Source: Solidesulfovibrio carbinoliphilus subsp. oakridgensis (GTDB lineage Bacteria; Desulfobacterota; Desulfovibrionia; Desulfovibrionales; Desulfovibrionaceae). From it: a stretch of DNA of 64,000 bases. Positions 220 to 29,438 of this stretch are shown piece after piece. The stretch spans positions 124,001 to 188,000 of the forward strand of contig NZ_CM001368.1 of NCBI RefSeq assembly GCF_000177215.2, in the 5' to 3' direction. The notes beneath the pieces are model-generated. The model had not been told where the DNA came from and made no database searches. It worked only from the letters and a program-made list of their open reading frames with translations. A program made the translations under genes and the position numbers. How positions within the stretch are numbered: the stretch's first letter is position 1; each line of letters starts with the position of its first letter.

Positions 220-1131
220 ATGCCGCAAGAGAGCCGCAATGCCCTGACCGTGGACGTGGAAGACTACTTCCACGTCAGCGCCTTCGAAGGCGTCATCCGG
301 CCGGGGCAGTGGGGCGGGTTCGATTGCCGGGTGGCGGCCAATACCCGCCGCATCCTCGCTCTCTTTGACGAATACGATCTTACGGCCACGTTTTTCGTCC
401 TCGGCTGGGTGGCCAGGCGCCATCCGGACCTGGTACGGGACATCGCGGCCGCCGGCCACGAGATCGCCTGTCATGGGTTCGGCCACAAGCGCATCCGCTT
501 CCAGACGCCCAAGGCCTTTCGCCGCGACGTGGCCGCGTCCAAGGCCCTGCTGGAAGACATCGCCGGCCGGCCGGTCCTCGGCTACCGGGCACCGAGCTAT
601 TCCATCACGCCCGAGACCGCCTGGGCCCTGGACGTCCTGATCGAGGAAGGATTCGCCTACGATTCGAGCATCTTTCCCATCGTCCACGATCTGTACGGCT
701 TTCCCGGGGCCTCGCCGCATCCCCACCGCATCCGGCGTCCGGCCGGGGAGATCCTGGAATTTCCTCCCACCACCCTGCGCCTGCGCCTCCTTGGCCGGTC
801 GCTGGCCCTGCCCATTTCCGGCGGCGGCTATCTGCGCCTTTTCCCGGCCTGTTTTTTGCGGTGGGGCCTGGCCCGCGTCAACCGCCGCGAAGGCCAGCCG
901 TGCGTCCTTTACTTCCACCCCTGGGAGATCGATCCCGGCCAGCCCCGGATACCCGCCTGCCTGAAATCCCGGTTTCGCCACTACCTCAACCTGGACAAGA
1001 CGGAAGACCGGCTGCGCACCCTGTTCGAGGGACTTTCTTTCGGGCCCATGGGCCTCCTGCTGGCCGGCCTCGGTCCGCTGCCGGCCATTTCCCTGGACCA
1101 ATCCCCAACACCCGCCCGCATGGAGCGGTGA
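220..1131 (+). CDS. Polysaccharide deacetylase, PEP-CTERM/exosortase locus type
   Basis: 303 aa NodB-fold deacetylase with no signal peptide. It opens with LTVDVEDYFHVSAFE (residues 9-23), the hallmark start of the PEP-CTERM-locus deacetylase subfamily, where D12 and the DVED acids form the metal/base motif. Further NodB motifs are ATFFVLGW, the metal histidines H85 and H89 (CHGFGHK) and YRAPSYS at about 122-128. The C-terminal part matches the DUF3473 extension, with YFHPWEID. It would remove acetyl groups from amino sugars of the exopolysaccharide or its lipid-linked precursor. It starts 7 bp after the barrel gene, so it is probably cotranscribed with it. Identity to the subfamily is strong; the substrate is unknown. 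Confidence 0.9.
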   Translation: MPQESRNALTVDVEDYFHVSAFEGVIRPGQWGGFDCRVAANTRRILALFDEYDLTATFFVLGWVARRHPDLVRDIAAAGHEIACHGFGHKRIRFQTPKAFRRDVAASKALLEDIAGRPVLGYRAPSYSITPETAWALDVLIEEGFAYDSSIFPIVHDLYGFPGASPHPHRIRRPAGEILEFPPTTLRLRLLGRSLALPISGGGYLRLFPACFLRWGLARVNRREGQPCVLYFHPWEIDPGQPRIPACLKSRFRHYLNLDKTEDRLRTLFEGLSFGPMGLLLAGLGPLPAISLDQSPTPARMER

Positions 1132-7793: not shown

Positions 7794-8438
7794 AGCTCCT
7801 CCCTGTTGTAAACTCGTTGCACCGCCTTCCTTCCCGGCGCGCCGGAAAGCGCCTCGCGCGCTTCACTCCTTTTGGACCGCTCTTTTTCCCTCTATGCGGT
7901 CTGGCCGGAAGACGGTCCCTTCCTTTTTTCAATGCAGCGCCGTAATGCGCCACGCAGGTTAAGCAAGGGCCGTGCCTTGCAATGAATTCCATAACATCGC
8001 CAAATTCCATTGATAAATTTGACGTTGTGAAGACTGTTTCGATTGGTTCGTAGCATTCTCCGACAGATCTTGTCGAAGTTCCTTACATCGTGACGAGGAT
8101 CAGGCGTGGCTCATACCCGATGATGGGGGCTGCTCCGGTAGTGGAATGGGGGCAAGCCCCCATAGGAGGACTTCCCGTTTGCATGGAGAAATGGCGTTGC
8201 ATTTCAAAAAAACCATGGTATGGAAATAGTATATGAAAACCCCGGTCAATTTATCGCCTTGCTTGTGGATACAGGGATTCCGAGAAGATCGGCGTCGTCG
8301 GCCAGGGGCGGGGAGAGCCGGGCCCAAGCCGTCGCCGGGGGCGTTTGCCGGCCTGCCGCGGCGGGTCCAGGCGGCAAACCGTCCGGCCCCTGGGGGCACG
8401 CACGGCAGGGCCGCACCCCATCCGGGGGGAGGGCGGCG
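7794..8438. other. 645-bp divergent leader, no convincing gene
   Basis: This gap separates the divergent epimerase and the 17-gene operon. Bases about 7,920-8,270 are clearly more AT-rich than anything around them. Visible elements are an inverted repeat at 8146-8153/8156-8163 (ATGGGGGC, loop AA, GCCCCCAT), directly followed by AGGAGG (8164-8169); a GCAAGG/CCTTGC stem near 7965-7982; and a TTGACG at about 8029 without a good -10 at the right spacing. A 17-codon reading frame starting at 8182 could follow the AGGAGG, but the spacing is poor. It most likely holds the operon promoter(s) and a structured 5' leader. Confidence 0.5.
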
Positions 8439-9695
8439 ATGAGCGGCGCCATGGCCGGGCCACGGACGGCCGTGGCCGTGGCGGAGGGAGCCCTTGGCCG
8501 GGAAATCCTCGTCCTTTGCCACCGCATCCCCTATCCGCCCAACAAGGGGGACAAGGTCCGGTCCTACCATCTCGTGCGCCATCTGGCCGAGCGGGGCTGG
8601 CGCGTCCACCTCGGGGCCCTGGCCGACACGCCGGACGACATGGCCTATCGGGACAGCCTGCGTCCGCTGTGTGCGAGCCTCGCCGTCGAACCTCTGCCGG
8701 CCTGGCGCAAGTTCTGCTCCCCCCTCGGCGCGATCCGGGGCACGTCCCTGTCCGTGGAGTGTTTCCGCAACCGGCGGTTGCAGGCCTATGTGGACAAGGT
8801 CCTGGCCTCGGGAACGGTATCCGCCGCCCTGGCCGTCAGCGCCCCCATGGCCGAATACCTCCGCTGCGCCGCCTCGCCGCTCCCCGGGCGGCGGATCCTC
8901 GATCTGGTGGATGTGGATTCCGAAAAATGGCGGGCCTATGCCGGCCGGGCCGCCTGGCCGGCCAGCCGGATTTACGGCCTGGAGGCAAAGCTCCTTGGCC
9001 GCTACGAACAGCGCGCCGCCGACCTCTTCGAGGCCGTGCTCCTGGTCTCGGAAGCCGAAGCCTCGCTCTTCCGCTCGCTTGGCGGCCGGGGCGGCCAGGT
9101 CAGAACCGTGTCCAACGGCGTGGACCTCGACTATTTCTCCCCGGCCCCGGACCGGCAGGGGCCTTCCGCCAGTCCGTCCACGGTCTTTTGCGGGGCCATG
9201 GACTATCCGCCCAATATCGACGCCGTGGCCTGGTTTGCCGAAGCCGTCCTGCCGCGCCTCGGCGAGCGGCTGCCCGGGCCAGCCTCTTTTTCCATCGTGG
9301 GGTCCAACCCGGCCCCCCGGGTCCGGGCCCTGGCCGGGCTGGCCGGGGTGCGGGTGACGGGCCCGGTGCCGGACGTCCGGCCGTTTGTGGCCGAGGCCGC
9401 CGTGTCGGTCGCGCCCATGCGGATCGCCCGGGGGGTGCAGAACAAGGTCCTCGAGGCCATGGCCATGGGCAAGGCGGTGGTGGCCACGGAGCAGGCCTTC
9501 GAGGGCATCGAGGCCGTGGCCGGCGAGGATTTGTGCGTGGTCCCGGACGAGCCGGAGGCCTTTGCCGCGGCCGTGGCCGGCTTGCTCGCCGATCCGGCCG
9601 GGGCCGCGGCCATGGGGCGTCGGGCCAGGCGGTGCATGGAGCGCCGCTACGCCTGGGCCGCCCGCCTTCAAACCCTTGAGGAGCTTTTGGGGTAG
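8439..9695 (+). CDS. Sugar transferase, PEP-CTERM/EpsH1 system-associated (GT4)
   Basis: 418 aa. It starts with EILVLCHRIPYPPNKGDK, the signature opening of the PEP-CTERM/EpsH1-associated Stp1 family. The core has DLVDVDSEKWRAY, VSNGVDLDYFSP, FCGAMDYPPNIDAV and PMRIARGVQNKVLEAMAMG. It is a cytoplasmic GT-B enzyme of exopolysaccharide assembly. The ATG at 8439 follows GGGGGAGGG; upstream codons in the same frame are Gly/Ala/Pro-rich and non-homologous, so longer versions were rejected. It is the first gene of the 17-gene run and ends 5 bp before the FemAB gene, the usual neighbour in exosortase loci. Confidence 0.9.
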   Translation: MSGAMAGPRTAVAVAEGALGREILVLCHRIPYPPNKGDKVRSYHLVRHLAERGWRVHLGALADTPDDMAYRDSLRPLCASLAVEPLPAWRKFCSPLGAIRGTSLSVECFRNRRLQAYVDKVLASGTVSAALAVSAPMAEYLRCAASPLPGRRILDLVDVDSEKWRAYAGRAAWPASRIYGLEAKLLGRYEQRAADLFEAVLLVSEAEASLFRSLGGRGGQVRTVSNGVDLDYFSPAPDRQGPSASPSTVFCGAMDYPPNIDAVAWFAEAVLPRLGERLPGPASFSIVGSNPAPRVRALAGLAGVRVTGPVPDVRPFVAEAAVSVAPMRIARGVQNKVLEAMAMGKAVVATEQAFEGIEAVAGEDLCVVPDEPEAFAAAVAGLLADPAGAAAMGRRARRCMERRYAWAARLQTLEELLG

Positions 9696-9700
9696 CCGCC

Positions 9701-10732: not shown

Positions 10733-10745
10733 AAAGGTGGTTGGC

Positions 10746-11570: not shown

Positions 11571-11595
11571 CAAGCTGCAGAGGGGGGAAGCGGTT

Positions 11596-14963: not shown

Positions 14964-16289
14964 ATGGCGATGCACATCGCGTTTGTGGCCAGGGAAGCCG
15001 CCGGTCCGGGCGGCCCGGGCCAGGCCGGGGGCATCGGCCGGTACGCCGCCACCCTGGCCGCCGGCCTGGCCGCCCGGGGAGCCCGCGTCGCGCTTGTCGG
15101 CCAAAGCCCGGACGCCACGTTTCGCGTGCAGGACGCGGGCGGCCTGCGCCTGGCCTGGCTGCCGAAATGGGAAGACGCGTCCGGCCTGTCCTGGCGGCTG
15201 CGGCGGATGGAGGAGGCGTTCTTGCGTACCCGGCCCGGCCGGGCCCTGTGGGCCGATCTGGCCGGCAAGGTCCGGCGGGCCCTGCTCGTCAACCGCTGGC
15301 TGCCGCGCCTGGAGGAGGCCTGGGGCGAGGCCTTCGACGTGGTGGAATTCGCGGAGTGCGGCGCCGAGGGCCTTTTCTACCTGCGCCGCCGCAACCGGCC
15401 GCCTTGCGCGGTCCGCATCCACTGCCCGACCCAGCTCCTCATCGAAAAAAACTTCGACCGGGTGGCCCCCGGCAAGCGGCTCTTGGTCCGCCTCGAACGC
15501 CTGGCCGCCCGGCGGGCCGACGCCGTCACGGCGCCGGGCTCCTCGGCCGCCGACCTGGCCGCGGGCGCGTGGCGGCTGGCCGCCACGGAGCCGGCCGTCC
15601 TGCCGAATCTCTACGACGGGAACATTTTTTCACCCGCCACAGAGGAAGGCCGGGCCGGGGCCTTCACCATCTTCTATTCCGGCCGTCTGGAGCGGCTCAA
15701 AGGCCTGCCCCATTTTCCGGGCATCCTGTCCCGTCTGGCCGCCCGGGGCGTGGACTTCCGGGTCCGGCTGGCCGGCGGCGACACGGCCACGGCCCCGGGC
15801 CAAACGTCCATGAAGGCCTGGCTCCTGGCCGCCCTGGAGCCGGCCGTGCGGGAGCGGGTCACGTTTCTCGGCCACCTGGGCGAAGGGGCGCTGGTGGCGG
15901 AGCTTCGGGCCGCGACCGTCGGCCTTTTCCTCTCGGCCTACGAGACCTTCGGCTACACGGCCCTGGAGGCGCAGGCCTGCGGCCTGCCGGTCATCGTGTC
16001 CCGAACCGGCGGCCTGGCCGAGGTGGCGGTGGACGGAGAAACCGGCTTTCTGGTCGATCCCAACGACCACGAGGCCGTTGCCGCCGGCCTCTTACGCCTG
16101 GCCGGAGACCGGGAGCTCGGCCGGCGCATGGGTGAAGCCGCCGCCCGGCACGCCGCCCGGACGTTTTCCGTGGCCAGCCGGTCCGGCGCCTTTCTGGATT
16201 TCTACGCGGCCGTGGCGGCTGCCGCCGGCTCCAGGCGCAAGGCGCCGGCAACCCGCATCGCCGGACCGACGGCAGGGGAGGAGGCATGA
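14964..16289 (+). CDS. Glycosyltransferase family 4
   Basis: 441 aa GT-B enzyme. It begins MHIAFVAREAAGPG followed by the GGIGRYAATLA acceptor loop. The donor domain contains FYSGRLERLKGLPHFP, RLAGGDTA and the catalytic region SAYETFGYTALEAQACGLPV, with the two Glu of the E-x7-E motif. It is a cytoplasmic retaining transferase. It overlaps the next glycosyltransferase by 4 bp (ATGA) and opens the densest block of the operon, where most start codons overlap the previous stop. Confidence 0.9.
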   Translation: MAMHIAFVAREAAGPGGPGQAGGIGRYAATLAAGLAARGARVALVGQSPDATFRVQDAGGLRLAWLPKWEDASGLSWRLRRMEEAFLRTRPGRALWADLAGKVRRALLVNRWLPRLEEAWGEAFDVVEFAECGAEGLFYLRRRNRPPCAVRIHCPTQLLIEKNFDRVAPGKRLLVRLERLAARRADAVTAPGSSAADLAAGAWRLAATEPAVLPNLYDGNIFSPATEEGRAGAFTIFYSGRLERLKGLPHFPGILSRLAARGVDFRVRLAGGDTATAPGQTSMKAWLLAALEPAVRERVTFLGHLGEGALVAELRAATVGLFLSAYETFGYTALEAQACGLPVIVSRTGGLAEVAVDGETGFLVDPNDHEAVAAGLLRLAGDRELGRRMGEAAARHAARTFSVASRSGAFLDFYAAVAAAAGSRRKAPATRIAGPTAGEEA

Positions 16290-17521
16290 AACCGCGCCCC
16301 ACGCCCGATGCCCCGCGCCTGGGCTATCTGCTGCGGACCTTTCCGGTCCTGTCCGAGACCTTCGTGGCCGGCGAGATACGGAGCGTGGCCGCCCTGACCG
16401 GACAGGCACCCGTGGTCGCGGCCCTCTACCGGCCGGGTCCTGGCCAGGCAGGGGGCTGGAGCCCGGCCCCCGGGGACGCGCTCCGGTACTGGAACGACAT
16501 CGACAAGCGCCACTTGGGCGGGTTGGCCCTGGCCCACGCCGGGCTTCTGGCCAAGGCCCCGGCCCGGTGCCTCGACTGTCTGCTCTGGCCGGGACCGGGG
16601 CGCCTGGCCCTGAAGGACCGGATCAAGGCCCCGGCCCTGGCCCGGTTTTTCCTCGACCATGGCGTCACCCATCTGCACAGCCATTTCGGCTGGGAGCAGG
16701 CCGACATGCTGGCCCACCTGCACCGGCTGACCGGCCTGCCTTTTAGCCTCACGCTTCACGCCGCCGACATCTTCGTCTCCCCGGACTGCCTGCGCCAACG
16801 GCTGGCCGACGCGGCCTTCGTAGCCACCATAAGCGACTACAACAAGGCCCTGCTTCTGGACCGCCTGGGCCTGCCCGGGGAGCGGGTCCACGTGGTCCGC
16901 TGCGGCGTGGACCTGCCCACCTTTCCCTTTGGCCCGGCGCCCGAAGCCTCGCCGCCGCGCCTGGTGTCCATCGGCCGGATGGTGCCCAAAAAGGGCTTCG
17001 ACGTTTTGCTGCGCGCCCTGGCCCTCTTGCGGGACGACGGGGTGGCCTTTGCGGCCGAACTGGTCGGGGACGGGCCGTTGCGCTCCGACCTTGCCCGTCT
17101 GGCCGGCCAACTGGGCCTTGCGGACGCGGTCACCTTCACCGGGACCCTGGAGCCGTCCGAGGCCGCCTGTCGGCTGGGCCGGGGAAGCGTCTTTGTCCTG
17201 GCCTGCCAAAAGGGGCCGGACGGGGACATGGACGGCATCCCGGTGGCCCTCATGGAAGCCATGGCCCTGGGCCGGCCCGTGGTCTCCACCCTTCTCAGCG
17301 GCATCCCGGAGCTGGTCGCGGACGGCTGCGGCCTCCTCGCCGCCCCGGGCGATCCCCGGTCCCTGGCCGAAGCGTTGCGGCGGGTTCTTTCGGAAAAGGA
17401 TCTGGCCGGACGGCTGGCCGCCGCCGGACGGCAACGGGTGGAGGAGGCCTTCACGTTGGACGGCCAGGCCCGGCGCATCCTCGAACTGGCGGCCGGTCGC
17501 GGCCCGGAGGGCCAGGCATGA
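16286..17521 (+). CDS. Glycosyltransferase family 4 (colanic acid WcaL/AmsK-like)
   Basis: 411 aa. GYLLRTFPVLSETFVAGEI at residues 12-30 is the characteristic opening of WcaL/AmsK-type transferases. It then has HLHSHFGWEQADMLAHL, SLTLHAADIF, the donor-domain segment SIGRMVPKKGFDVLL and a C-terminal catalytic region DGDMDGIPVALMEAMALG. The long linker with DMDG before the second Glu is typical of this subgroup. It is coupled by 4-bp overlaps to the genes on both sides. Confidence 0.9.
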   Translation: MKPRPTPDAPRLGYLLRTFPVLSETFVAGEIRSVAALTGQAPVVAALYRPGPGQAGGWSPAPGDALRYWNDIDKRHLGGLALAHAGLLAKAPARCLDCLLWPGPGRLALKDRIKAPALARFFLDHGVTHLHSHFGWEQADMLAHLHRLTGLPFSLTLHAADIFVSPDCLRQRLADAAFVATISDYNKALLLDRLGLPGERVHVVRCGVDLPTFPFGPAPEASPPRLVSIGRMVPKKGFDVLLRALALLRDDGVAFAAELVGDGPLRSDLARLAGQLGLADAVTFTGTLEPSEAACRLGRGSVFVLACQKGPDGDMDGIPVALMEAMALGRPVVSTLLSGIPELVADGCGLLAAPGDPRSLAEALRRVLSEKDLAGRLAAAGRQRVEEAFTLDGQARRILELAAGRGPEGQA

Positions 17522-18906
17522 GAATCCTTGTCTGCTGCGCCGACTGGGGCGTGCCGGTCGGCGGCAGCGCCGGCTCCTCGGTCCACCTGCGGGCCATGGC
17601 TGCGGCCCTTTCCCGCCTCGGCCACGAGGTCCGGCTGCTGGTCAGTAACGGCGCCGGCCCCTGTCCGCCCGGCCTGTCGGTGGCGACCGTGCCCCACCGG
17701 CGGCTTTGGCCGGCGATTTTCGGCCTGGTCGAGCGGGCCCGGGGTTGTCCGGCCCCGGCCGCCCTTGAAACCGGGGGCGTTTCGACCGTCCCGGCTCCCG
17801 GGGCCGTGACCGATGCCCCGGCCCCGGGAGCCGTCTCCTTAAAGACCCGGCTCTATTACGAGACCCTGCCCGCCCTGGCCGACCGGGTGGAGGAATGCCT
17901 TGTCCATCCGATCGCTTTTGGCCGGGCCGTGTCCCGGATGCTGGCCGATTTCGCGCCCGAGGCCGTGTACGAGCGCTACGCCCTGTGCCAGACCGGCGCG
18001 GCCGGGGCCCTGGCCCGGGCCGGCGAGGGCCGCGTGCCCCACATCCTGGAGGTCAACGCCTCCCTGGCCCGGGAACGGACCGAGAAGGCCGACGACTGGC
18101 TGGCCGGCCCCTGGCGCTTGTTCGCCGGCCGGCAGGAGGCCCGGCTGTGGCGCGGGGCGGACCGGGTGGTGTGCGTCTCCGAGGCCCTTGGCCGCCGGAT
18201 AGCCGAGGCCGGGGCCGACCCGGACCGGGTTCGCGTGGTGCCAAACGGTGTCGACGCCGAGGCCTTCAGCCCGGACCGGCCCAAGGGAGCCCTGCGCCGG
18301 CTCCTCGGCCTTGGCGACGGCGCGGTCCTCATCGGCTGGCTCGGAGCCCTGTCCCCGGGCCGGGGGGCAGAGGAGTTTGTGCGCCTGCTCGGACAGACGC
18401 TCCCCCAGGTCCCGCAAGCCCGGGGCGTGGTCATCGGCGGCGGGCCCCTCGACGGGACCTGCCGCACGCTCGCCCGGGAGCTTGGCCTGGCGGACCGGGT
18501 TCATTTCACCGGTCCGGTCGCCCACGACCGGGTGCCGGACTTGCTCGTGGACCTGGACATGGCCGTGGCCTGCTACCCGCCCCAGGCCGATTTCTACTTT
18601 TCGCCCATGAAGGTGGCCGAATACCTGGCCTGCGGCCTGGCCGTGGCCGTCGGCCGGACGGGCCGGGCGGACCAGGCGGTAACGGACGGGGTGAGCGGCC
18701 TGCTTGTGGACCCGGACGCCCCCGGCGCCTTTGCCAGGGCCCTCGTCGGCCTTTGCCGCGACCCCGATCTGCGGGCGCGCCTGGGGGCCGGGGCCAGGGA
18801 GCAGGCCATGGCCGGGCCGACCTGGCTTGGCAACGCCCGGCTGGTGGAGCGGGAAATCGAAGCCTGTTTCGAGGCCCGGGTGGCCGGAGGTGGCAAGTGG
18901 GCATGA
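17518..18906 (+). CDS. Glycosyltransferase family 4
   Basis: 462 aa. The N-terminal domain starts MRILVCCADWGVPVGGSAG with SSVHLRAMA and YERYALCQTG. The donor domain has GWLGALSPGRGAEEF, GGGPLDGTCR and YFSPMKVAEYLACGLAV. The SPMKVAEYL element is shared with the SPMKLFEYL of the 5,543 gene product, so the two may use the same donor. A Pro/Ala/Gly-rich insertion around residues 75-105 is probably a disordered loop. Both ends overlap neighbours by 4 bp. Confidence 0.9.
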   Translation: MRILVCCADWGVPVGGSAGSSVHLRAMAAALSRLGHEVRLLVSNGAGPCPPGLSVATVPHRRLWPAIFGLVERARGCPAPAALETGGVSTVPAPGAVTDAPAPGAVSLKTRLYYETLPALADRVEECLVHPIAFGRAVSRMLADFAPEAVYERYALCQTGAAGALARAGEGRVPHILEVNASLARERTEKADDWLAGPWRLFAGRQEARLWRGADRVVCVSEALGRRIAEAGADPDRVRVVPNGVDAEAFSPDRPKGALRRLLGLGDGAVLIGWLGALSPGRGAEEFVRLLGQTLPQVPQARGVVIGGGPLDGTCRTLARELGLADRVHFTGPVAHDRVPDLLVDLDMAVACYPPQADFYFSPMKVAEYLACGLAVAVGRTGRADQAVTDGVSGLLVDPDAPGAFARALVGLCRDPDLRARLGAGAREQAMAGPTWLGNARLVEREIEACFEARVAGGGKWA

Positions 18907-20495
18907 CGGACTATGTGGCCCTGGTGCCGGAGGACGAGGCGGGTGCGGTCGGCCCGGGGCTGGCCGACCGGCTGGCCGGCCTGGCCGGCCGGGAGCGTCT
19001 GGCTTTCCCTCCGCTCGGGGCGGACCCGGCCGGATTGGCCGGCGTGCTGCTTCTGACCCCGGGCCGGCCGGGAACGGTCACGGTCAACGGCCGGCCGGCC
19101 ACGCCCCTGTGGCGACGCGGCGGCCGCCTGCTCTTTTCGCCGGAACTCTTTCGCCGCCACGAGAACGTCGTGGCCCTTGGCCGTGGCGCCGGGGAGCCGA
19201 GGCTCGCTCCGGTGGTGGCCGACGCCGGCCGTGTCCGCGACCTGGATCTCTGGCCCGAGACGGCCTGGCGCATGCAGACCCTTTCCGGCGCGGACCTGGG
19301 GCCGGCTCCGGCCCGGAGCCACGCTCCCGTTTGTGCCCCGGGCCTTCTCGACGGCCTGGCCCGGGGGCTTGGGGCCATGGTGGCCCCGGACGGCGAGGTC
19401 TGGTCGTTTTACGACCTGGAGGCGGCCACGTTTCGCCTGTCCGGCTGGCGGTGGGATACGGGCATCGTGCTGGAAGGCCTGGCGGCCGCGGCTGCGGCCG
19501 GGATCGGCGCCGGCTCGGCCACGGCCGCCCGGACCGTGGGCGACCGGTTGCTGGCCGTGCGCCTGGCTGACCCGGCCTGTCCGGGCGGATTCCCGGAGTG
19601 GACGGACCTGCGGTATTTTCCGTCCCCCCGGCAGGTCTGCCAGTGGGTCGTGCCGTTTAACGCCGCCTTTGTCGCCGCCGGCCTCATGCGGCTGGCCGAC
19701 CTGACCGGCCTGGCCGCCTACCGGGAGGCCGCCCGGGAGAGCCTGCTCCTGGCGGCCGCTTCCGGCCTGACCCCGGCCGGCGGGGTGGCCGGCTACTATT
19801 TCGAGGACGCCCGGCAGTGGCGCTACCTCGGCCAGATAAACGATTCCGGCGTCCTCGGCCGGGGCCTGGCCCTTTTCCCGGACGAGGCCTGGGCATCCAC
19901 TGCCGCCGCCCGGGCCGGGGCCTACATCCTTGGCAAGGCGGCCCGGCCCGACGGCCACATCGGCCGGGCCTGGTGGGATCCGGACGGGGCACGGCCGGCC
20001 GGCGCGCCGCTTTTCCCGGAATGGGCCAAGCACCCCGGCCGGATGGTGGCCAAGGTCTTCCTGCGCGGCCAGGCCTGGGTGCTCATGGGCCTTGCCGGTG
20101 CGGTGCGGCTTGGCGCGAACAGGGCGCTCGCGGACGGGGCCAGGCAACTGGCCGATTTCGTCCTGGCCGCCCAGCAGGCCGACGGCTCCTGGCGCTACAG
20201 CCAGAACCAGCCGGAACTCGGCGCCTGCGCCAAGACCACCGCCGCCCTGGCCCTGGCCCTGGCCGAATGGTCCAAGGCTTCCGGCGACGCCGGGCCGCTC
20301 CCCGCCGTGTCCCGGGCCCTCGGCTACCTGGAAACCTGCCGCCGGCCGGACGTGGTGCCGCCGGAACTGGCCGGAATGCCGGTCGACACCTCGGGCGAGG
20401 GCTGCATCGTCTATTTCCGGGACCGGCCCGTGGTCTGCGCCTATGCCGGGGCCCTGGAGCTTCTGGCCCGGCTGGCCGTGGGGGAGCGGCCGTGA
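18903..20495 (+). CDS. Alpha/alpha-toroid glycosidase-like protein
   Basis: 530 aa, no signal peptide. Residues from about 140 on show repeated helical hairpins typical of an (alpha/alpha) toroid, with conserved aromatic/acidic patches GEVWSFYDLE, GWRWDTGIVLEGL, WVVPFNAAFVA, YYFEDARQWRYLGQINDSG and a QQADGSWRYSQN repeat-like segment. The fold occurs in six-hairpin glycosidases, unsaturated glucuronyl hydrolases and polysaccharide lyases. I cannot name a family with confidence. Residues 1-130 form a separate Gly/Ala/Arg-rich region without obvious homology. The ATG overlaps the preceding stop by 4 bp and its own stop overlaps the GTG of the glycosyltransferase fusion. Confidence 0.65.
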   Translation: MTDYVALVPEDEAGAVGPGLADRLAGLAGRERLAFPPLGADPAGLAGVLLLTPGRPGTVTVNGRPATPLWRRGGRLLFSPELFRRHENVVALGRGAGEPRLAPVVADAGRVRDLDLWPETAWRMQTLSGADLGPAPARSHAPVCAPGLLDGLARGLGAMVAPDGEVWSFYDLEAATFRLSGWRWDTGIVLEGLAAAAAAGIGAGSATAARTVGDRLLAVRLADPACPGGFPEWTDLRYFPSPRQVCQWVVPFNAAFVAAGLMRLADLTGLAAYREAARESLLLAAASGLTPAGGVAGYYFEDARQWRYLGQINDSGVLGRGLALFPDEAWASTAAARAGAYILGKAARPDGHIGRAWWDPDGARPAGAPLFPEWAKHPGRMVAKVFLRGQAWVLMGLAGAVRLGANRALADGARQLADFVLAAQQADGSWRYSQNQPELGACAKTTAALALALAEWSKASGDAGPLPAVSRALGYLETCRRPDVVPPELAGMPVDTSGEGCIVYFRDRPVVCAYAGALELLARLAVGERP

Positions 20496-23305
20496 AGATC
20501 CTCCACGCCTGCAAGCATTTCTACCCCCGGGTGACCGGCGTCACGGCCCACGTGGAGCACCTTGCCCGGGAACAGGTCCGGGCCGGCCATGCCGTGGCCG
20601 TGGCCACCTGGGGCGAGGCGGCCGGCGAGGAAACGCGGCAGGGCCTCTCCGTCCTTCGTGCCCGGCCCGGCGACCGGGAAGGCCTCAGGCGGCTCATGGC
20701 GGACTTCGAACCGGACGTCTTGCACGCCCATTCCGTCTGGGACGTCTCCCACGCCGCCGCCCGGACCGCCCGCCGCCTGGGCCGGCCCTACGTGGTCACC
20801 GCCCACGGCACCTGGCACCTCCTGGCCGGGACCCTGGCCGCAGGCCCGTGGTGGGAGCGGCTGCGCTGGGGCCTGTGGCAACGGCGGGTCCTGTGGCCCC
20901 GGCTCTTGCGCGGGGCCGGGACGGTCATCGCGCTCAATGCCGGGGAGGAAGCGGACGCCCTGGCCGCCGGCGTTCCGGCCGGCCGGCTGGTCCGCATCCC
21001 CAACGCCGTGGACACGGACGTGTTTTTCCCCGGCGAGGCGGGTGGCGGCGGGGAGGACACCTTCCCGGTGCTTTTCGTCGGAGCCATGGAAGCAAACAAG
21101 GGCATCCTGGAAGTGGTGGCGGCCGCTGGCCTGCTGCGAAAAAGCCTGCCCCGGGCCCGGTGGCTCCTGTGCGGCGACGGACCGGACCTCCCCCGGGCCA
21201 GGCGGGCGGCCGTGGCGGCCGGGGTGGGGGAAGTGGCCCATTTCCTCGGCCGGGTGGACCGGTCCGACATGCCGGCCCTCTACCGCCGGGCCGGGCTGGT
21301 GGTGGCCCCGTCCCGGGCCGAGGCCTTTTCCACGGCCCTCCTCGAAGCCATGGCCACGGGCCTGCCCTGCGTCGGCTCGCGGGTCGGCGGCACGCCGGAG
21401 ATCATCGACCACGGCGGCACGGGACTGTTGATTCCCCCGAACGACGCCCGGGCCCTGGCCGACGCCGTCCGGTGGCTGGCCGAGCATCCCCGGGAAGCCG
21501 GGGCCATGGGCCGGGCCGGCCGGGAAAAGGCCGGCCGGCGTTTCGCCTGGCCGCTGGTGGCCGGCCGCATCGAGCAGGCCTACCGGCTGGCCCTGGCCGT
21601 TTTCCTGGCCTGTCTGCTCGGCCTGGCCTGGCTTGGCCGGCCGGCCGAGGCGGCCCGGGTTTTTCCGGCCGACATCCTGGCCATGGTCGATCCCCGCACC
21701 GGGCAGGCCGTGGCCGGGGAGGACGGCCAGTGGCGGGAGGCGAGCGCCGTGTGGGACGGCCGGACGGTCCGGGTGGCGGCGGCCCGGGGCGAGGCCACGG
21801 CCTTCCAGCTGGTCCTCGTGCCGGACCCGGGCGAGCGTCTGGAGGATATCCGCATCATTGTGGACCTGCCAGGCGGCGTGTCCTCCCGGGCCTACCGGGC
21901 CTGGCATATCTGGGACGTGCCGGAAGTGGCCGTGCCGCTCGGGCCGGATGGGGCCCCCTTCGCCATCCCGGCCGCGTCCCCGGCCGAGCGGGCAACGACT
22001 TCCGGCTATGCGGCCTTTGCCACGGTGGTGGAACTGGCCGTGCCCCGGACGGCGGCGGCCGGAGCCGCAACCGGCGAAGTCCGGGTGGCCTGGAACGGCG
22101 GCGGGGTGGCTCTGCCCCTGGCCCTGACCGTGCTGCCGCTCGATCTGCCCCGTCGTCCGTCCTTCTCCCTGGAGATGAATTCCTACGGCGACTACCAGAA
22201 GCGCCTGCCGGCCGGACCGGAGACGTTTTTGCGCATCCACCGGCTTTTCAGAAGGTTTCGCGCCACCTTCACCCTGGTTCCCTACCGCCACGACGGCAGC
22301 CCGGTCGAGGACTTCCTGGTCCCGCCCCTGGCCTCCGACGGCAGTCCGGACTTCGCCGCCTTCGACGCCGTCCTGTCCGGGCTTTTCGACGGCACGGCCT
22401 TTGACGACGGGGAGCCGGTCGACCATTTCGTCCTGCCCTTTGCGACCGGCTGGCCGGCCGCCTGGGGCACGGACCGGGCCGCCTACGCCCGGCGCAACAT
22501 CGGCCTGCGCCTGGCCCTGGCCCGGCATATCCGGGAGAGGGGCTGGTGTTCCACCCGGTTCCAGGAGTTTCACAACGAGAATCCGGAACACGGGGCCAGG
22601 GTTCCCTGGCGGCTCGACGAGCCGGTCACCGCCCTGGACATGGCCGGCCACGACCTTTTTGCCGGCTTCAACCGGACGGCCGGCCGGGTCCTGGCCGGGC
22701 CGAGCCCGATTTCCTACCGCATCGACATCTCGGCCTGGCAGCCGCTGCGCGCCCGCCTGCGCCGCCTGGCCGGCCGGCAAGTCACGGACTGGTCGGTCTC
22801 GGCCGAGCCGGCCTATCTGGACCGGGAGGCGGTGGCCTTTTTCCGGGGACTCGGCGCCCAGTGGCTGGTGGCCTACGGCGAGCTCCCCGGCTTCGCCGCC
22901 GGGGGCCAATCCACGCCGTGGTGGCGGTTTCCCCTGCTCCTGGCCCGTTTCGAGGCCCGGGGCCTTGACGGCTACGCCCAGTGGCAGGTCGACCGGTGGC
23001 AGGAACGGGACATGCCGGACCTGCCGCGGGAAGCGGTGCCGTTTTTTTATTCGAGCGCCTCGGGAGCCCGGGATTTCATCTGGCCGGGAACGTTTTTCGG
23101 TTTGCCGGGGCCACTCCCGTCGCTGCGGCTTTTCGCCCTGCGCGAGGGCCTAAACCTCCTCGATTACCTCTCCCTGGCCTGCGCCCGCCGGCCCGACCTG
23201 GCGGCAGGCCTTCGGGCGCGGCTGGCCGGCCTGGCCGGAGCCGACGCGCTTCGGGCCTTTAAAACGCAGCTCGCCAGCCTGGCGACGGGACGGAGCGGAT
23301 CATGA
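20492..23305 (+). CDS. Fusion: GT4 glycosyltransferase - membrane helix - GH123/DUF4091-like glycosidase
   Basis: 937 aa from a GTG overlapping the previous TGA. Residues 1-360 are a complete GT4 enzyme (FYPRVTGVTAHVEHLA, VTAHGTWHL, VGAMEANKGILEV, catalytic SRAEAFSTALLEAMATG). Without a stop it runs into a hydrophobic helix at about 366-382 (ending LLGLAWLG) followed by RPAEA, which looks like a signal-peptide core plus cleavage site. Residues about 390-937 resemble a secreted GH123/DUF4091-type glycosidase (SLEMNSYGDYQKR, FQEFHNENPEHG, DWSVSAEPAYLD, YAQWQVDRWQ). An in-frame GTG at 21557 could start a separate secreted form. As one chain it would place the transferase in the cytoplasm and the hydrolase in the periplasm. 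Confidence 0.75.
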   Translation: MKILHACKHFYPRVTGVTAHVEHLAREQVRAGHAVAVATWGEAAGEETRQGLSVLRARPGDREGLRRLMADFEPDVLHAHSVWDVSHAAARTARRLGRPYVVTAHGTWHLLAGTLAAGPWWERLRWGLWQRRVLWPRLLRGAGTVIALNAGEEADALAAGVPAGRLVRIPNAVDTDVFFPGEAGGGGEDTFPVLFVGAMEANKGILEVVAAAGLLRKSLPRARWLLCGDGPDLPRARRAAVAAGVGEVAHFLGRVDRSDMPALYRRAGLVVAPSRAEAFSTALLEAMATGLPCVGSRVGGTPEIIDHGGTGLLIPPNDARALADAVRWLAEHPREAGAMGRAGREKAGRRFAWPLVAGRIEQAYRLALAVFLACLLGLAWLGRPAEAARVFPADILAMVDPRTGQAVAGEDGQWREASAVWDGRTVRVAAARGEATAFQLVLVPDPGERLEDIRIIVDLPGGVSSRAYRAWHIWDVPEVAVPLGPDGAPFAIPAASPAERATTSGYAAFATVVELAVPRTAAAGAATGEVRVAWNGGGVALPLALTVLPLDLPRRPSFSLEMNSYGDYQKRLPAGPETFLRIHRLFRRFRATFTLVPYRHDGSPVEDFLVPPLASDGSPDFAAFDAVLSGLFDGTAFDDGEPVDHFVLPFATGWPAAWGTDRAAYARRNIGLRLALARHIRERGWCSTRFQEFHNENPEHGARVPWRLDEPVTALDMAGHDLFAGFNRTAGRVLAGPSPISYRIDISAWQPLRARLRRLAGRQVTDWSVSAEPAYLDREAVAFFRGLGAQWLVAYGELPGFAAGGQSTPWWRFPLLLARFEARGLDGYAQWQVDRWQERDMPDLPREAVPFFYSSASGARDFIWPGTFFGLPGPLPSLRLFALREGLNLLDYLSLACARRPDLAAGLRARLAGLAGADALRAFKTQLASLATGRSGS

Positions 23306-24336
23306 AGGCGATGTTGAAGCGGATATTGGGCAAGGGCTGCGCCAGCCTCGGCTTCGCCCGGCTGGCGGACCGGCTGGGGCCCGGCCGGTTCACGGTCCTC
23401 ATGTTCCACCGGATCGTGGACGGCCCGACCCTGCGCGCCAGCGCCAACGCGCCCTTGATGCTGGAGGAGGGGCTTTTCCGCGACATGGCCGAGACCCTGG
23501 CCAGCGAGTGCCGCTGCCTGCCGCTCACCGAGGCCATGGCCTGGGCCGGGACGGACGGGGCTTCCGTGCGGCCCGTGGTGGCCCTCACCTTTGACGACGG
23601 GTACGGCGATTTTCGGGACAAGGCCTTTCCCATCCTGCGGCGGTTCGGCCTGCCGGCCACCATGTACCTGCCGACGGGCTTTCTGGACGAGGAAGACCGG
23701 TTTTTCTGGTGGGACGCGGTGGAGGCCTTTTTCTCCTCGCGCCCGGAAAAAGGCCGGTTCGACGCGGCCGGCCTGCCGGCGGCGTTCGCGGACGCGGTCT
23801 TCGCCCTGGCCGTCGATCCGGGTCCGGACAAGGTGGAGGCGTTTATCCGGGGGCCCCTTCGCCGACTGGCCCCCCGGGATCGGGCCCGGTTCGTGGATAG
23901 ACTCGCCCCCCCGCCGGTCCGGCGGCCGGCCATGCTCGACTGGGACGCGGTCCGGGAGCTGGCCGCCACGGGGCTGGTCGAATTCGGGGCCCACGGCGTC
24001 ACCCACCCGCTCCTCGACGAGGTGGACCTCGAGCCGGCCCTCCAGGAAGTGGCCACGTCCAAGCGGCGCATCGAGGAGGAGACGGGCCGGACCGTCACCT
24101 CGTTTGCCTATCCCTCGGGCTGCGTGCCGCCCTACCACCGGCAGATGCTCGCCCGGGCCGGCATCGGCCTGGCCGTCACCACCCGGTTCGGCGGCAATGG
24201 CGCCGCCACCGACCCGCTGCTCCTGCGGCGGGTGGATGCCCGGCTGTGCCTGGCCGGGGAAACGTTTGATCCGTCGTATTTTCTGGCGGTCTGTTCCGGG
24301 TGCCTGGACTGGCTCCACGGGACGAAGGAGGCGTGA
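23302..24336 (+). CDS. Polysaccharide deacetylase (NodB family)
   Basis: 344 aa. Motif 1 ALTFDDGYGDF (F97, D98, D99) and motif 2 GAHGVTHP (H231, H235), then FAYPSGCVPP. The N-terminal VLMFHRIVDGPT and the FFWWDAVEAFF insertion match deacetylases in capsule and exopolysaccharide clusters. It is cytoplasmic or peripherally membrane-bound, with no signal peptide. It overlaps the fusion gene by 4 bp. It and the 13,929 enzyme have the same motif spacing and may be ancient duplicates acting on different residues. Confidence 0.9.
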   Translation: MKAMLKRILGKGCASLGFARLADRLGPGRFTVLMFHRIVDGPTLRASANAPLMLEEGLFRDMAETLASECRCLPLTEAMAWAGTDGASVRPVVALTFDDGYGDFRDKAFPILRRFGLPATMYLPTGFLDEEDRFFWWDAVEAFFSSRPEKGRFDAAGLPAAFADAVFALAVDPGPDKVEAFIRGPLRRLAPRDRARFVDRLAPPPVRRPAMLDWDAVRELAATGLVEFGAHGVTHPLLDEVDLEPALQEVATSKRRIEEETGRTVTSFAYPSGCVPPYHRQMLARAGIGLAVTTRFGGNGAATDPLLLRRVDARLCLAGETFDPSYFLAVCSGCLDWLHGTKEA

Positions 24337-25333: not shown

Positions 25334-26538
25334 ACGCCTTTTCCTCCGGCTACCAAGCGCCCCTTCACCGGGAGGCCGGCCGGCCAGCCGGTCCGGCGCC
25401 TTCGTTCGACGGCCTGGGCCTGGCCCATCTCATTCTGGACATGGGATTTGGCGGGGCCGAGCGACTGGCCCAGAACCTGGCCATTGCCATGGGGAAATGC
25501 GGGGCCAGGTGCCATGTCCTGTGCCTGGACGCCGTTTCCGGCAATACCGAGCCCCTCGCCCGACACGGCATCCCGGTCGAACTGGTCAAGCGCAGGCCCG
25601 TCCCCTTTGATCCGGTCGTGTGCCTGCGCCTCGTGCGGCGGTTAAGAGCCCTCGGCATCGGCCTCCTCCACGCCCACGACCTGGCCAGCCTGGCCTACGC
25701 CGTGGCCGCCGGACGGGTGCTCGGCATCCCGGTGGTCATGACCGAGCACAGCCGCCACTACATCGAGGAGCGGCGGTTGCGCCGGCTGGAAAAACGGCTT
25801 TTGTGCCTCGGCGTCGGCCGGCTCGTCACCGTGTCGCCGGAACTGGCCGCGGCCAGCGCCAGCCGCGACGGCGTCCGGCCGGACAAGGTGACGGTCATCG
25901 AAAACGGGGTGGACGCCGAGCGCTTCGCCTGCGCCTGCCGGCAGGTCCTGCGGCAGGAACTCGCGCTTGCCGACGACGCCCTCCTGGTCGGCATGGTCGG
26001 CCGGCTGGAGACGATCAAGGGCCCGGACGTGCTCTTGGCCGCTTTTGCCGGGCTGGCCTCCCGGTTCCCCGAGGCCCGGCTCGCCTTTGCTGGCGAGGGC
26101 ACCCTCGAGCCCGGCCTGCGGCGGCAGGCCCTGGCCCTGGGCCTTTCGGACCGGGTCCATTTCCTGGGCTCCCGGGCCGACATCCCGGACGTCATGGCCG
26201 GGCTCGACGTCCTGGCCCTGCCGTCCCGGTCCGAAGGGCTGCCCTTCGCCCTGCTCGAAGGCATGGCCGCCGGACGGGCCGTGGCCGCCACGGCCGTCGG
26301 CCGGGTGCCCGGGCTTGTCAAACCGGCAGAGGGGCCGCCAAACGGGCTCCTCGTGCCCCCCGGCGACGCGGCGGCCCTGGCCGGGGCCCTGGCCTCGCTG
26401 CTGGCCGATGCGGCCCTTCGCCTGCGCCTTGGCGGCACGGCCCGGGATTTCGTGGAGCGGCGCTACGACCAGCGGGTCATGGTGCGCGATTACCAGACGG
26501 TCTACCGCCGGGTGCTGGCGGGGCGGGGCGGCCTATGA
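25330..26538 (+). CDS. Glycosyltransferase family 4
   Basis: 402 aa. After a 30-residue variable leader the GT-B fold begins GLAHLILDMGFGGAERLAQN, similar to PEP-CTERM-associated Stp2-like transferases. Other motifs are HAHDLASLAYA, MTEHSRHYIEERRL, ENGVDAERF, GMVGRLETIKGPDVLL and the catalytic RSEGLPFALLEGMAAG. It is cytoplasmic. 4-bp overlaps on both sides imply translational coupling with the acyltransferase before it and the lyase-GT fusion after it. Confidence 0.9.
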   Translation: MNAFSSGYQAPLHREAGRPAGPAPSFDGLGLAHLILDMGFGGAERLAQNLAIAMGKCGARCHVLCLDAVSGNTEPLARHGIPVELVKRRPVPFDPVVCLRLVRRLRALGIGLLHAHDLASLAYAVAAGRVLGIPVVMTEHSRHYIEERRLRRLEKRLLCLGVGRLVTVSPELAAASASRDGVRPDKVTVIENGVDAERFACACRQVLRQELALADDALLVGMVGRLETIKGPDVLLAAFAGLASRFPEARLAFAGEGTLEPGLRRQALALGLSDRVHFLGSRADIPDVMAGLDVLALPSRSEGLPFALLEGMAAGRAVAATAVGRVPGLVKPAEGPPNGLLVPPGDAAALAGALASLLADAALRLRLGGTARDFVERRYDQRVMVRDYQTVYRRVLAGRGGL

Positions 26539-29438
26539 TGCCGCCATTCGCCAGCCCGGCCGTTGCCGATCCCCTGGCCCTGGCCGATCCGGCCCTGGCC
26601 TGGCTGGCCCGCTGCCAGGTCACGGAGCCGGGCTACGACCAGGGCGGCATCCGCGATCCCCTGGACGGCCGGGTGGTCGGGGACCACTACGCCGCCACCC
26701 ACTTCGCCTGGGCCTGTGCCCTGCGCCAGGCCGTCCGGCCCGATGCCGGCCGCCGCGCCGCCGCCCTGGCCGCCATGACCTTTCACGTGCGGACGTCCAA
26801 GGACGAGTACGCGCCCGGAACCTGGTCCTACCACTGGGATTTCAACAACCTGGCCTCCATCGAAACCTACGTCCTGCTGGAGGGGGCCGCGAAGGCGGAG
26901 CCCGGGTCCCTGGACGAAGACTGGCGCGGCAGCCTCCACATCTGGAAGACCAATGCCCACTGGGCCGTCAACTGGGTGGCCATGCGGGCCCTGGCCCATT
27001 TCCGCCGCCACGACCTGTTTGGCCGCCGGCGCGATCTGCTGACCGCCAGGAAGTGGCTGGAATACGTCCTTGACGCCCAGCTTCCGGACGGCGGCATCGA
27101 GGACGTGAAGGGCAAAAGCCTGCCGAGCCAGTACCACGCCTACACCGCCTGCCTGCTCCACCGGATGCTCGCCCGCCACCCGGCCGTGCCCCAGACGGTC
27201 AGGAGCGCCGCCCTGTGGCTTTTGGCCCTTATCGGCCCGGACGGGGAGTGCAACGCCTTCGGCCGGGGCCAGGGCCAGATCTTCGGCTACGCCTGTGCGG
27301 TCTACCTCTTTCGGGCCGCGGCCGCCCTGGACCCGGAGCTGGCCCCCCGGTGCCGGTGGGCCTCGGCCAAGGTGCTCGAACGCCTGGCCCGGTTCCAGGA
27401 CCCGGAGGGCTGGTGGCCCCTGGTCACTAATCGCCTGCCGGTCGCCCGCCGGGCCGGCTGGTACGACTACCACCACCAAAGCGTCTACAACGCCTTTGCC
27501 GCCCTCTGGCTGACGCTGGCCTCCGGGATCCCCCTGTCGCCGGGTCCGGAGGAGGCCCCGGAGCCGGGCGTTGTGTGGCTCAAGGATTCCGGGCTCCTGG
27601 CCGTGCGGCGAAAGCGCTGGTTCGCGCTCTTTGCCGCCGGCAGCCAAGGTGCGGGCTACGCCACCGAGGCCGGGATCACGCCGCACCAGCTTGTCTGGGA
27701 GGGCCATGACCTTTTCCGCTATCCCTTGGGCCCGGGGGCCGGGAAGTACGGTGAGGGAGCGAGAAACCAGGGCCAGGAGGCCAACTGCTGGTCGCCCTTG
27801 TGGCGGGACGGGGACGGGCCCTGGCAGGCCCCGGCCGGGGCTGAGGGGACGCTTGTTCCCGGACCGGGGCACAACCGGTGGCAACTGCGCCTGGAGCGGG
27901 ACGGCGCGGTCTGGCAGCGGGAGCTGGTGCTCGGCCGCCGGTTCCTTGCGGCCCGGGACAGGCTGACGCTGCCCGAAGCCCCGGCCGGGGCCGAAACCCG
28001 GACGGTTCGGAGCCGCAATTTCGCCTGGGCGGCCGGCCGGGCCCGGGAGGCCGGGCCGGCCTTCGTCCGGGACCTGGCCAGCGGGGCGGTCCTTCGGACC
28101 TTTGGCGACGGTGCCCTGGCCCCGGCCGGAACCGTGGCCACGGCCTGGGATGAGACCGACATCCTGGCCGCTTCCGGCTCCGGGACCCGCGTGGATTCCG
28201 GCTGGCGCCTGCGCCAGGGCCCGGCCCGGACCGGCGGGAAACTGCCGGGCATCGTCTGCCTGAGCTGGGACCCCTGGTCGTCCCTGTGGAAACGCAAGCA
28301 GCGGCTTCTTTTCGAACTGTCCCGCTCGGGCCGGTCGCCGCGAACCCTGTACGTGGAACCGCCGACATCCATCACCGACGTCATCGAAGGGGCAGGGCGG
28401 TTTTTCAGGCCGGCTGGCGACCGGCTGCGCCGCTGCCTGCGGTCCCGGCCGGCCCACCTCGGCCACGGTTTCCACCTGGCCTCGCCGCTGTGGCCCTGGC
28501 CCGGGCAGCGGACCTTCGACCGGCTGGCCCGGGCCAACCGCCAGGCCTGGCGCAACCAACTGCGCCGCTCCGTCAGGGACGTGGGCTTCCCGGACGGCTA
28601 CGTCCTGTGGCTCTACCATCCTTCCCAGATCGACGCTCTGGACGTGCTCGGGGACGACGCGGAGCTGGTGGTCTACGACTGGACCGACGACTGGCCGGCC
28701 GCCCTGCCGGAGAGCCACGGTGAGGAGGAGCGGCGGCGGCTCGAAGCGCGGCAGCACGAGCTCCTTTGCCGGGCCGATGTGGTCTTCGCGGTCTCGACGG
28801 CCCTGGCAAAGCGGGCGGCGAAATGCTGTCCCGAAGTCCGCCACCTGCCGAACGCCACCGATCCCGAGGTCTTCAGGCCCTTCGATCCGTCCCGGCCCGG
28901 CCATGCCCTGGCCGCCCGCCGGCCGGTCCTGGTCTATCTGTCCCAGATCACCGAGCGCCTGGACGTGGATCTCGTCCGGGACATGGCCCGGGAGCGGCCC
29001 GACTGGACCGTGGTCCTGGCCGGGCCGCTGGCCTGTCCGCCGGAGGTGGTCGCGCCGCTTGAAAAGTGTGATAACGTCATCCTGGCCGGCCCCCTGGCCT
29101 ACGAGGAGGCGGCCGGGCTGGCGGCCCAGGCCGACGTCTGCCTGCTGCCCCACAAGGAGGACGCCCTGACGCGCTCGCTTGATCCGATAAAGCTCTACGA
29201 CTACCTGGCCACGGGCCGGCCCATCGTGTCCACGGAGGTGGCCATGCATCCGGCCCTGGCCGGCTTCGTCCGGGTGGCCAGCGGGCCAAAGGCCTTCATC
29301 CGGGCTGTGGAAGCGGCCCTGGCCGAGCCGGCCGGCGAGGCGGACCGACGCCGCGCGGCGGCCATGGCCCATACCTGGGCGGCCCGGGCCACGGAAGCGG
29401 CGGACCTCCTGGAACGGTTTTTCCCGGAGGACGGGTAG
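26535..29438 (+). CDS. Fusion: alpha/alpha-toroid lyase-like domain + glycosyltransferase
   Basis: 967 aa, starting at tandem ATGATG. Residues 1-330 look like an alpha/alpha toroid (HYAATHFAWACALR, NNLASIETYVLLEG, KWLEYVLDAQLPDGGIED, SLPSQYHAYTAC, YDYHHQSVYNAFAAL). Residues about 345-560 look like the beta-sandwich that follows in heparinase or alginate-lyase-type proteins (DSGLLAVRRKRWFALFAAGS). Residues about 570-967 are a GT-B transferase that starts like a free-standing enzyme (GIVCLSWDPWSSLWKRKQR), with DWTDDWPAALP, LPNATDPEVF and LDPIKLYDYLATGRPIV. There is no signal peptide or membrane helix at the junction, so the lyase-like part should be cytoplasmic. The fold assignment for the first half is tentative. 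Confidence 0.7.
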   Translation: MMPPFASPAVADPLALADPALAWLARCQVTEPGYDQGGIRDPLDGRVVGDHYAATHFAWACALRQAVRPDAGRRAAALAAMTFHVRTSKDEYAPGTWSYHWDFNNLASIETYVLLEGAAKAEPGSLDEDWRGSLHIWKTNAHWAVNWVAMRALAHFRRHDLFGRRRDLLTARKWLEYVLDAQLPDGGIEDVKGKSLPSQYHAYTACLLHRMLARHPAVPQTVRSAALWLLALIGPDGECNAFGRGQGQIFGYACAVYLFRAAAALDPELAPRCRWASAKVLERLARFQDPEGWWPLVTNRLPVARRAGWYDYHHQSVYNAFAALWLTLASGIPLSPGPEEAPEPGVVWLKDSGLLAVRRKRWFALFAAGSQGAGYATEAGITPHQLVWEGHDLFRYPLGPGAGKYGEGARNQGQEANCWSPLWRDGDGPWQAPAGAEGTLVPGPGHNRWQLRLERDGAVWQRELVLGRRFLAARDRLTLPEAPAGAETRTVRSRNFAWAAGRAREAGPAFVRDLASGAVLRTFGDGALAPAGTVATAWDETDILAASGSGTRVDSGWRLRQGPARTGGKLPGIVCLSWDPWSSLWKRKQRLLFELSRSGRSPRTLYVEPPTSITDVIEGAGRFFRPAGDRLRRCLRSRPAHLGHGFHLASPLWPWPGQRTFDRLARANRQAWRNQLRRSVRDVGFPDGYVLWLYHPSQIDALDVLGDDAELVVYDWTDDWPAALPESHGEEERRRLEARQHELLCRADVVFAVSTALAKRAAKCCPEVRHLPNATDPEVFRPFDPSRPGHALAARRPVLVYLSQITERLDVDLVRDMARERPDWTVVLAGPLACPPEVVAPLEKCDNVILAGPLAYEEAAGLAAQADVCLLPHKEDALTRSLDPIKLYDYLATGRPIVSTEVAMHPALAGFVRVASGPKAFIRAVEAALAEPAGEADRRRAAAMAHTWAARATEAADLLERFFPEDG

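Follow-up and report, generated by a model that had tools for sequence, protein, structure and literature searches.

A single gene at 20492..23305 (+) of the window, by which we mean the whole 64,000-nucleotide stretch of Solidesulfovibrio carbinoliphilus subsp. oakridgensis DNA that was analysed, joins a GT4 glycosyltransferase (residues 1-367) through one hydrophobic segment ending in A-E-A (residues 385-387) to a domain of ~550 residues with remote homology to the GH123 superfamily. Our main reading, to which we give a probability of roughly 0.6, is that adjacent, overlapping genes for a cytoplasmic GT4 and an exported GH123-like glycosidase have merged within an exopolysaccharide operon of the exosortase A (XrtA) type, and that the glycosidase acts in the periplasm on the polymer of the GT4. 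The old signal peptide would now work as an internal signal/anchor, keeping the GT4 at the cytoplasmic face of the membrane and pushing the glycosidase into the periplasm, where it would trim or cut the polymer whose synthesis the GT4 serves. The sequence features described below suggest that both halves work on one polymer, each from its own side of the membrane.

Translation of the gene, which lies in a host genome of 4.2 Mb, gives 937 residues from a GTG start with a lone stop at the end, and the frame is also found at three further loci (L015, L016 and L017). Of 14 genomes of the genus that were searched, four, its own included, carry the in-frame GT4-GH fusion with no stop between the halves; the fused proteins of the other three are 52-62% identical to that of the window, and among the relatives a Solidesulfovibrio MAG and Desulfovibrio sp. 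DV bear names. The single uninterrupted frame of the original prediction therefore stands, recurring in four genomes, and relatives do not always encode two genes with a conserved stop, the outcome that had been named as fatal to it: two genomes of another genus have two genes, while all four carriers in this genus have one. Unfused relatives do exist, as would be expected had an assembly or sequencing error deleted a stop here, but four separate assemblies agree on the fusion while their junctions differ in length without loss of frame, and the identical frame across the carriers, with the A-x-A kept in all four, indicates that the fusion is not an artefact; we reject such an error as barely credible. 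Simple Nei-Gojobori counts over four genome pairs put dN/dS at 0.27-0.38 in the GT4 part, at 0.35-0.76 in the 28-residue junction, which has few codons, and at 0.35-0.46 in the GH part (up to residue 815), values consistent with purifying selection acting on both enzymes. In the G013 copy (L017 and L028; near a contig end) the reading frame is broken towards the end of the GH domain, which may be a draft error or the mark of a decaying gene.

The GT4 half (20492..21592, +) was delimited by Pfam, NCBIfam and alignments. Pfam Glyco_transf_4 matches at residues 15-176 (88.1 bits, curated cut-off 28.5) and Glycos_transf_1 at residues 190-345 (129.4 bits, curated cut-off 26.4), and seven Pfam glycosyltransferase models match within residues 1-376. 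Several NCBIfam GT4 models extend as far as residues 365-368 and stop two or three positions before their own ends (stp3 395/397, stp2 371/374, glgA_Coryne 388/391, MshA 404/406), and because they run nearly to these ends the half is complete, as had been predicted. The best NCBIfam matches, TIGR04063 stp3 (118 bits, cut-off 442) and TIGR03088 stp2 (114 bits, cut-off 409), come from PEP-CTERM/XrtA loci, the type of locus considered here; both scores fall far under the cut-offs, and membership in either equivalog was rejected. The E-x7-E motif of GT4 enzymes is represented by E277 and E285, which are invariant in the alignment of four fused and two unfused proteins. At E<=1e-40 the GT4 half matched 4 of 36 genomes only, the same four that carry the fusion.

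For the C-terminal domain (21653..23302, +; residues 388-937), which is predicted to be exported, the original GH123/DUF4091 label held as remote homology and failed as a Pfam assignment: none of the four family members gave a match to PF13320 or to another Pfam family at E<=10, whereas profile searches led to PDB entry 8k2f. A four-sequence profile of the domain matched NgaCa (8k2f) at E 2.6e-14 and NgaDssm (8k2j) at 0.0064; these two enzymes of the superfamily were the only chains at E<=0.01 among the seven PDB chains listed (E<=10), and the remaining five scored E 0.34-0.93, one of them again from the GH123-type superfamily. Once four distant stand-alone relatives had been added, the eight-sequence profile matched 8k2f at E 6.9e-20, with six of the seven chains listed (E<=10) being GH123-type enzymes (E 6.9e-20 to 5.8e-4) and the seventh an unrelated chain at E 1.7. 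A third domain profile is not an independent test, since it included GH123 rows. We also built one profile from five members of the clade, both fused and unfused and free of Pfam GH123 matches where scanned, and aligned it with a profile of four GH123-type proteins, two of which have PF13320 over the cut-off and two of which came from the class-wide profile search; this gave a probability of 97.9 and E 4.1e-13 over 417 columns, with DE falling on DE. AlphaFold models, built from three sequences only, were of poor quality, with a pLDDT of 48.4 for the whole protein and 44.7 for its C-terminal domain. The fold of the GH123-type superfamily is a beta-sandwich with a (beta/alpha)8 barrel behind it, and Foldseek with this low-confidence domain model returned members of that superfamily in all of the top 15 rows, at TM near 0.2; at E<=0.001, 20 of 32 rows were GH123-type, and the other 12 comprised six sialidases and assorted proteins with shorter alignments. 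The absent Pfam GH123 match and the poor structure models count against the main reading.

Within this domain, D709-E710 (22616..22621, +) fall in the alignments on the DE pair that is catalytic in GH123-type beta-N-acetylgalactosaminidases, a role described in PMC11087588. The surrounding DEP motif is well kept in a 14-row superfamily alignment, with E and P in 14 of 14 rows and D in 13. PMC11087588 also gives nine residues common to all characterised groups of these enzymes, which we mapped by motifs and spacing, the NgaLy sequence itself standing outside the alignment; five of the nine (D709, E710, G827, W831 and R879) are kept in both alignments. The positions of W115 and Y466 are changed to V512 and W864 in both, that of D95 is non-Asp (E478 in the 14-row alignment, Pro in the profile-profile alignment), and the counterpart of Y392 is uncertain by alignments and spacing, with Y795 nearby. 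By these comparisons the catalytic pair and a substrate-proximal Trp are kept, and the three changed positions are ones that hold domains together in the known enzymes. The three structural changes, together with an active-site Tyr that has no clear placement, count against the main reading and would suit an inactive domain that serves as a polymer-binding scaffold or as a chaperone for the export machinery; we consider this unlikely, as fused and unfused members of the clade, where they cover the positions, keep the two catalytic residues as well as Gly and Trp of the substrate-proximal G-x-x-x-W motif. An active glycosidase, as our main reading supposes, would be predicted to cleave a beta-HexNAc-type linkage by substrate assistance.

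The locus is an XrtA exopolysaccharide cluster, and the predicted placement of the GT4-GH gene in a polysaccharide locus was upheld by XrtA-system models that exceed their cut-offs. These comprise an XrtA-system polysaccharide deacetylase at 223..1131 (+; TIGR03006, 392 bits, cut-off 276) and the PEP-CTERM/XrtA-system glycosyltransferase stp1 at 8220..9695 (+; TIGR03087, 451 bits, cut-off 317), the true start of which probably lies downstream because the match begins at residue 96 of the frame. An XrtA exosortase (217.7 bits, cut-off 208) is encoded ~15 kb before the window (C1:108016-108795), and the exosortase-A-associated O-ligase model scores 156 within the window, under its cut-off of 188. 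The fused gene sits in a run of 4-nt overlaps (14964-16289, 16286-17521, 17518-18906, 18903-20495, 20492-23305, 23302-24336), overlapping in this way both a downstream polysaccharide deacetylase gene (23302..24336, +) and an upstream gene for a 530-aa protein (18903..20495, +). The latter has no Pfam or NCBIfam match; a protein resembling it by eye also lies 5' of the unfused GT4 in both genomes described below, and we regard it as a candidate further enzyme for the same polymer. A second large protein of fused appearance (967 aa) is encoded at 26535-29438, with a TuaH-like glycosyltransferase at its C-terminus and ~600 N-terminal residues that look toroid-like by eye and match no Pfam family; G004 (963 aa, L016:1408-4296) and L066 (1013 aa, 8982-12020) have frames comparable to it in length and start.

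The distribution of the C-terminal domain is sparse. It was found in 5 of 59 genomes, the host included, namely as the four fusions and a distant separate copy in G053, and because the other 10 of the 14 genus genomes (two of the ten <90% complete) gave no match, the fused gene is accessory, a further point against the main reading. A class-wide profile search matched 11 of 348 genomes at E<=1e-5: the four fused and G053, which are themselves rows of the query profile, G606 and G613, and four weaker matches (G492, G599, G678 and G682), those in G492 (831 aa) and G599 (813 aa) being separate proteins. Of 395 genomes sampled across the phylum 5 matched, again with the host among them, and the other four matches (L019-L022) are separate proteins with an N-terminal export-type segment by eye; the L019 copy (locus L023) lies ~6 kb from an exosortase, with the XrtA model over its cut-off, and adjoins a PEP-CTERM protein. 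Three of these relatives (L019, L020 and L021; 964-992 aa) have an extra N-terminal region of ~370-390 residues.

An unfused GT4 and GH pair is present in G606 (L066) and G613 (L067), two genomes of the same family and another genus (g22), and the pair is not found throughout that genus, as G034, also of g22, gave no match in the 59-genome search. Both loci have a gene order related to that of the window, running through two GT-like genes, the 530-aa relative, GT4, GH and more GT-like genes (by eye except for the scanned genes), with Pfam supporting the GT4 identity for L066; the stretch of deacetylase, acetyltransferase and GT genes that follows the fused gene is absent at both. The unfused proteins are 41% (GT4) and 42-43% (GH domain) identical to the window's. 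The unfused GT4 stops five codons past a Tyr aligned with Y364, and the GH ATG begins within that very Tyr codon, giving a 20-nt overlap with the GT4 in another frame; both GH genes have GAGG six bases 5' of the ATG and encode an N-terminal signal-peptide-like segment. This start makes the predicted export of the GH domain likely. Most likely the GH used to be exported on its own, by a signal peptide that became the internal signal/anchor, and since such a signal peptide accounts for both the internal hydrophobic segment and the A-x-A, parsimony favours a change from the separate to the fused state.

At the junction, a hydrophobic helix and its end (21587..21643, +; residues 366-384) are followed by a putative signal peptidase I site, A-E-A (21644..21652, +), in the context R-P-A-E-A-A-R, so that the helix with an AEA cleavage-like site behind the GT4 was borne out by Kyte-Doolittle analysis and alignment. 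Residues 363-381 form the top 19-residue hydrophobic window of the fused protein (Kyte-Doolittle mean 2.00; next best 1.45), and the best windows of the three relatives reach 2.24-2.51, their next best 1.36-1.62. The matching sites of the relatives read S-A-L-A-A, P-A-L-A-A and P-A-L-A-A; by alignment the helix is 2-4 residues shorter in the relatives than in the window protein, and A385, A387 and A388 are invariant in all four fused proteins while the hydrophobic core varies. GT4 enzymes are cytoplasmic and use nucleotide-sugar donors, and from this location and the known behaviour of signal peptides we infer an N-in/C-out topology for the fused protein. With enough hydrophobicity for a membrane helix and a position directly behind the end of the GT4 domain, the segment might act as an uncleaved type II anchor that keeps both enzymes physically joined; we rate this a little short of an even chance, given that an A-x-A after P or S is kept in all four fused proteins despite varying helix length and sequence and would be superfluous for a pure anchor. 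We give about even odds to cleavage by signal peptidase behind A387, in which event the gene would encode a polyprotein. If the A-x-A were cut, the GT4 and the GH would be left with only a common mRNA and 1:1 synthesis; cut or uncut, the glycosidase would reach the polymer in the periplasm.

A second lineage joins a GH123 domain to a membrane protein. In this family of genomes (f12) 8 of 22 matched at E<=1e-20, and the three of genus g78 (G197, G102 and G315) have a ~984-residue frame encoding a polytopic membrane protein followed by a GH123 domain (L038:7793-10744 (-), L037 and L071). The GH123 domain matches PF13320 at E 2e-18 and 6e-20 in the two proteins scanned, and the polytopic part has a weak PMT_2 match under the cut-off. 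The halves are separate neighbours, 7 nt apart and beside a GT4, in G394 (L070:6181-9190 (-)); match coordinates suggest that they are separate in G728, G735 and G729 too, and only the GH half was matched in G412. On two or more occasions, once with a GT4 and once with the polytopic protein, exported GH123-type glycosidases may have come into frame with a glycan or membrane gene that lies upstream, because they edit the product of the upstream enzyme and need to be made in matched amounts; in the fused gene the internal signal peptide would insert a single product, a glycan polyprotein, from which signal peptidase releases the periplasmic glycosidase and leaves the GT4 anchored in the membrane. 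We offer this tentatively, as a possibility with the odds somewhat against it.

The original prediction had also proposed an internal start at GTG 21557..21559 (+; V356), from which one gene would yield two products. The codon does exist in frame and would give a signal-peptide-like N-terminus, but a start function found no support. GTG is shared with G010, and G013 has a GTG two codons downstream, yet at the position itself G013 has GTC and G004 has GTT, and from residue 340 to residue 371 G004 lacks any in-frame ATG, GTG or TTG. Within the 18 bases that precede 21557 there is no Shine-Dalgarno match of three or more bases, in contrast to the GAGG ahead of the unfused GH ATGs, and as the unfused GT4s have the valine as well, it is probably kept for the GT4. 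In all three g78 genomes, unlike in the window's gene, the signal segment is preceded by an internal ATG that has a GGAGG-like sequence, and the conservation of this ATG there makes two products plausible in that lineage. For the gene in the window, with its varying codon and missing Shine-Dalgarno, we rejected the internal start, which we hold to be very improbable.

The merger, as we read it, ties one particular cytoplasmic glycosyltransferase to a GH123-like enzyme that is probably periplasmic, and thereby provides a testable lead on what glycosidases do in XrtA exopolysaccharide loci. The fused and unfused states together would show how an exported enzyme can join a cytoplasmic one by turning its signal peptide into an internal signal, with the direction of that change inferred from the comparison above.

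Among known systems, the C-terminal domain resembles GH123 and the related groups 1-4 beta-N-acetylgalactosaminidases (NgaCa 8k2f, NgaDssm 8k2j, BvGH123 and CpNga123) in its DE pair, GxxxW, PSxR and predicted export, and the remote homology covers the sandwich and the C-terminal barrel part; it differs from them in having no PF13320 match, in the changes at D95, W115 and Y466, and in its place behind a GT4 in a biosynthetic locus. The FbcH cytochrome b/c1 precursor of Bradyrhizobium is a polyprotein split at an internal signal-peptide site, and the likeness would apply only if cleavage occurs here; FbcH concerns respiratory proteins of unrelated sequence. A parallel in layout is NdvB and the pseudomonad 'Orphan' GT2-GH17 protein, for which PMC10237404 predicts a cytoplasmic GT and a periplasmic GH in one polypeptide, with the GH processing the product of the GT. 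As described there, the GH comes first and the GT last with a BcsA-like membrane region, whereas the present protein has the GT first and a single hydrophobic segment. The fused protein resembles NdvB in having a GT and a GH split by a hydrophobic segment, the topology being predicted, and at E<=0.01 the whole fused protein matches only GT4-type Pfam families and neither GT2 nor GH17. The limited literature searched contained no earlier report of a GT4-GH123 fusion. The principle of a glycosyltransferase and a glycosidase in one protein is known from NdvB (GT2-GH17), and the pairing of a GT4 with a GH123-like domain would represent a new variant of it.
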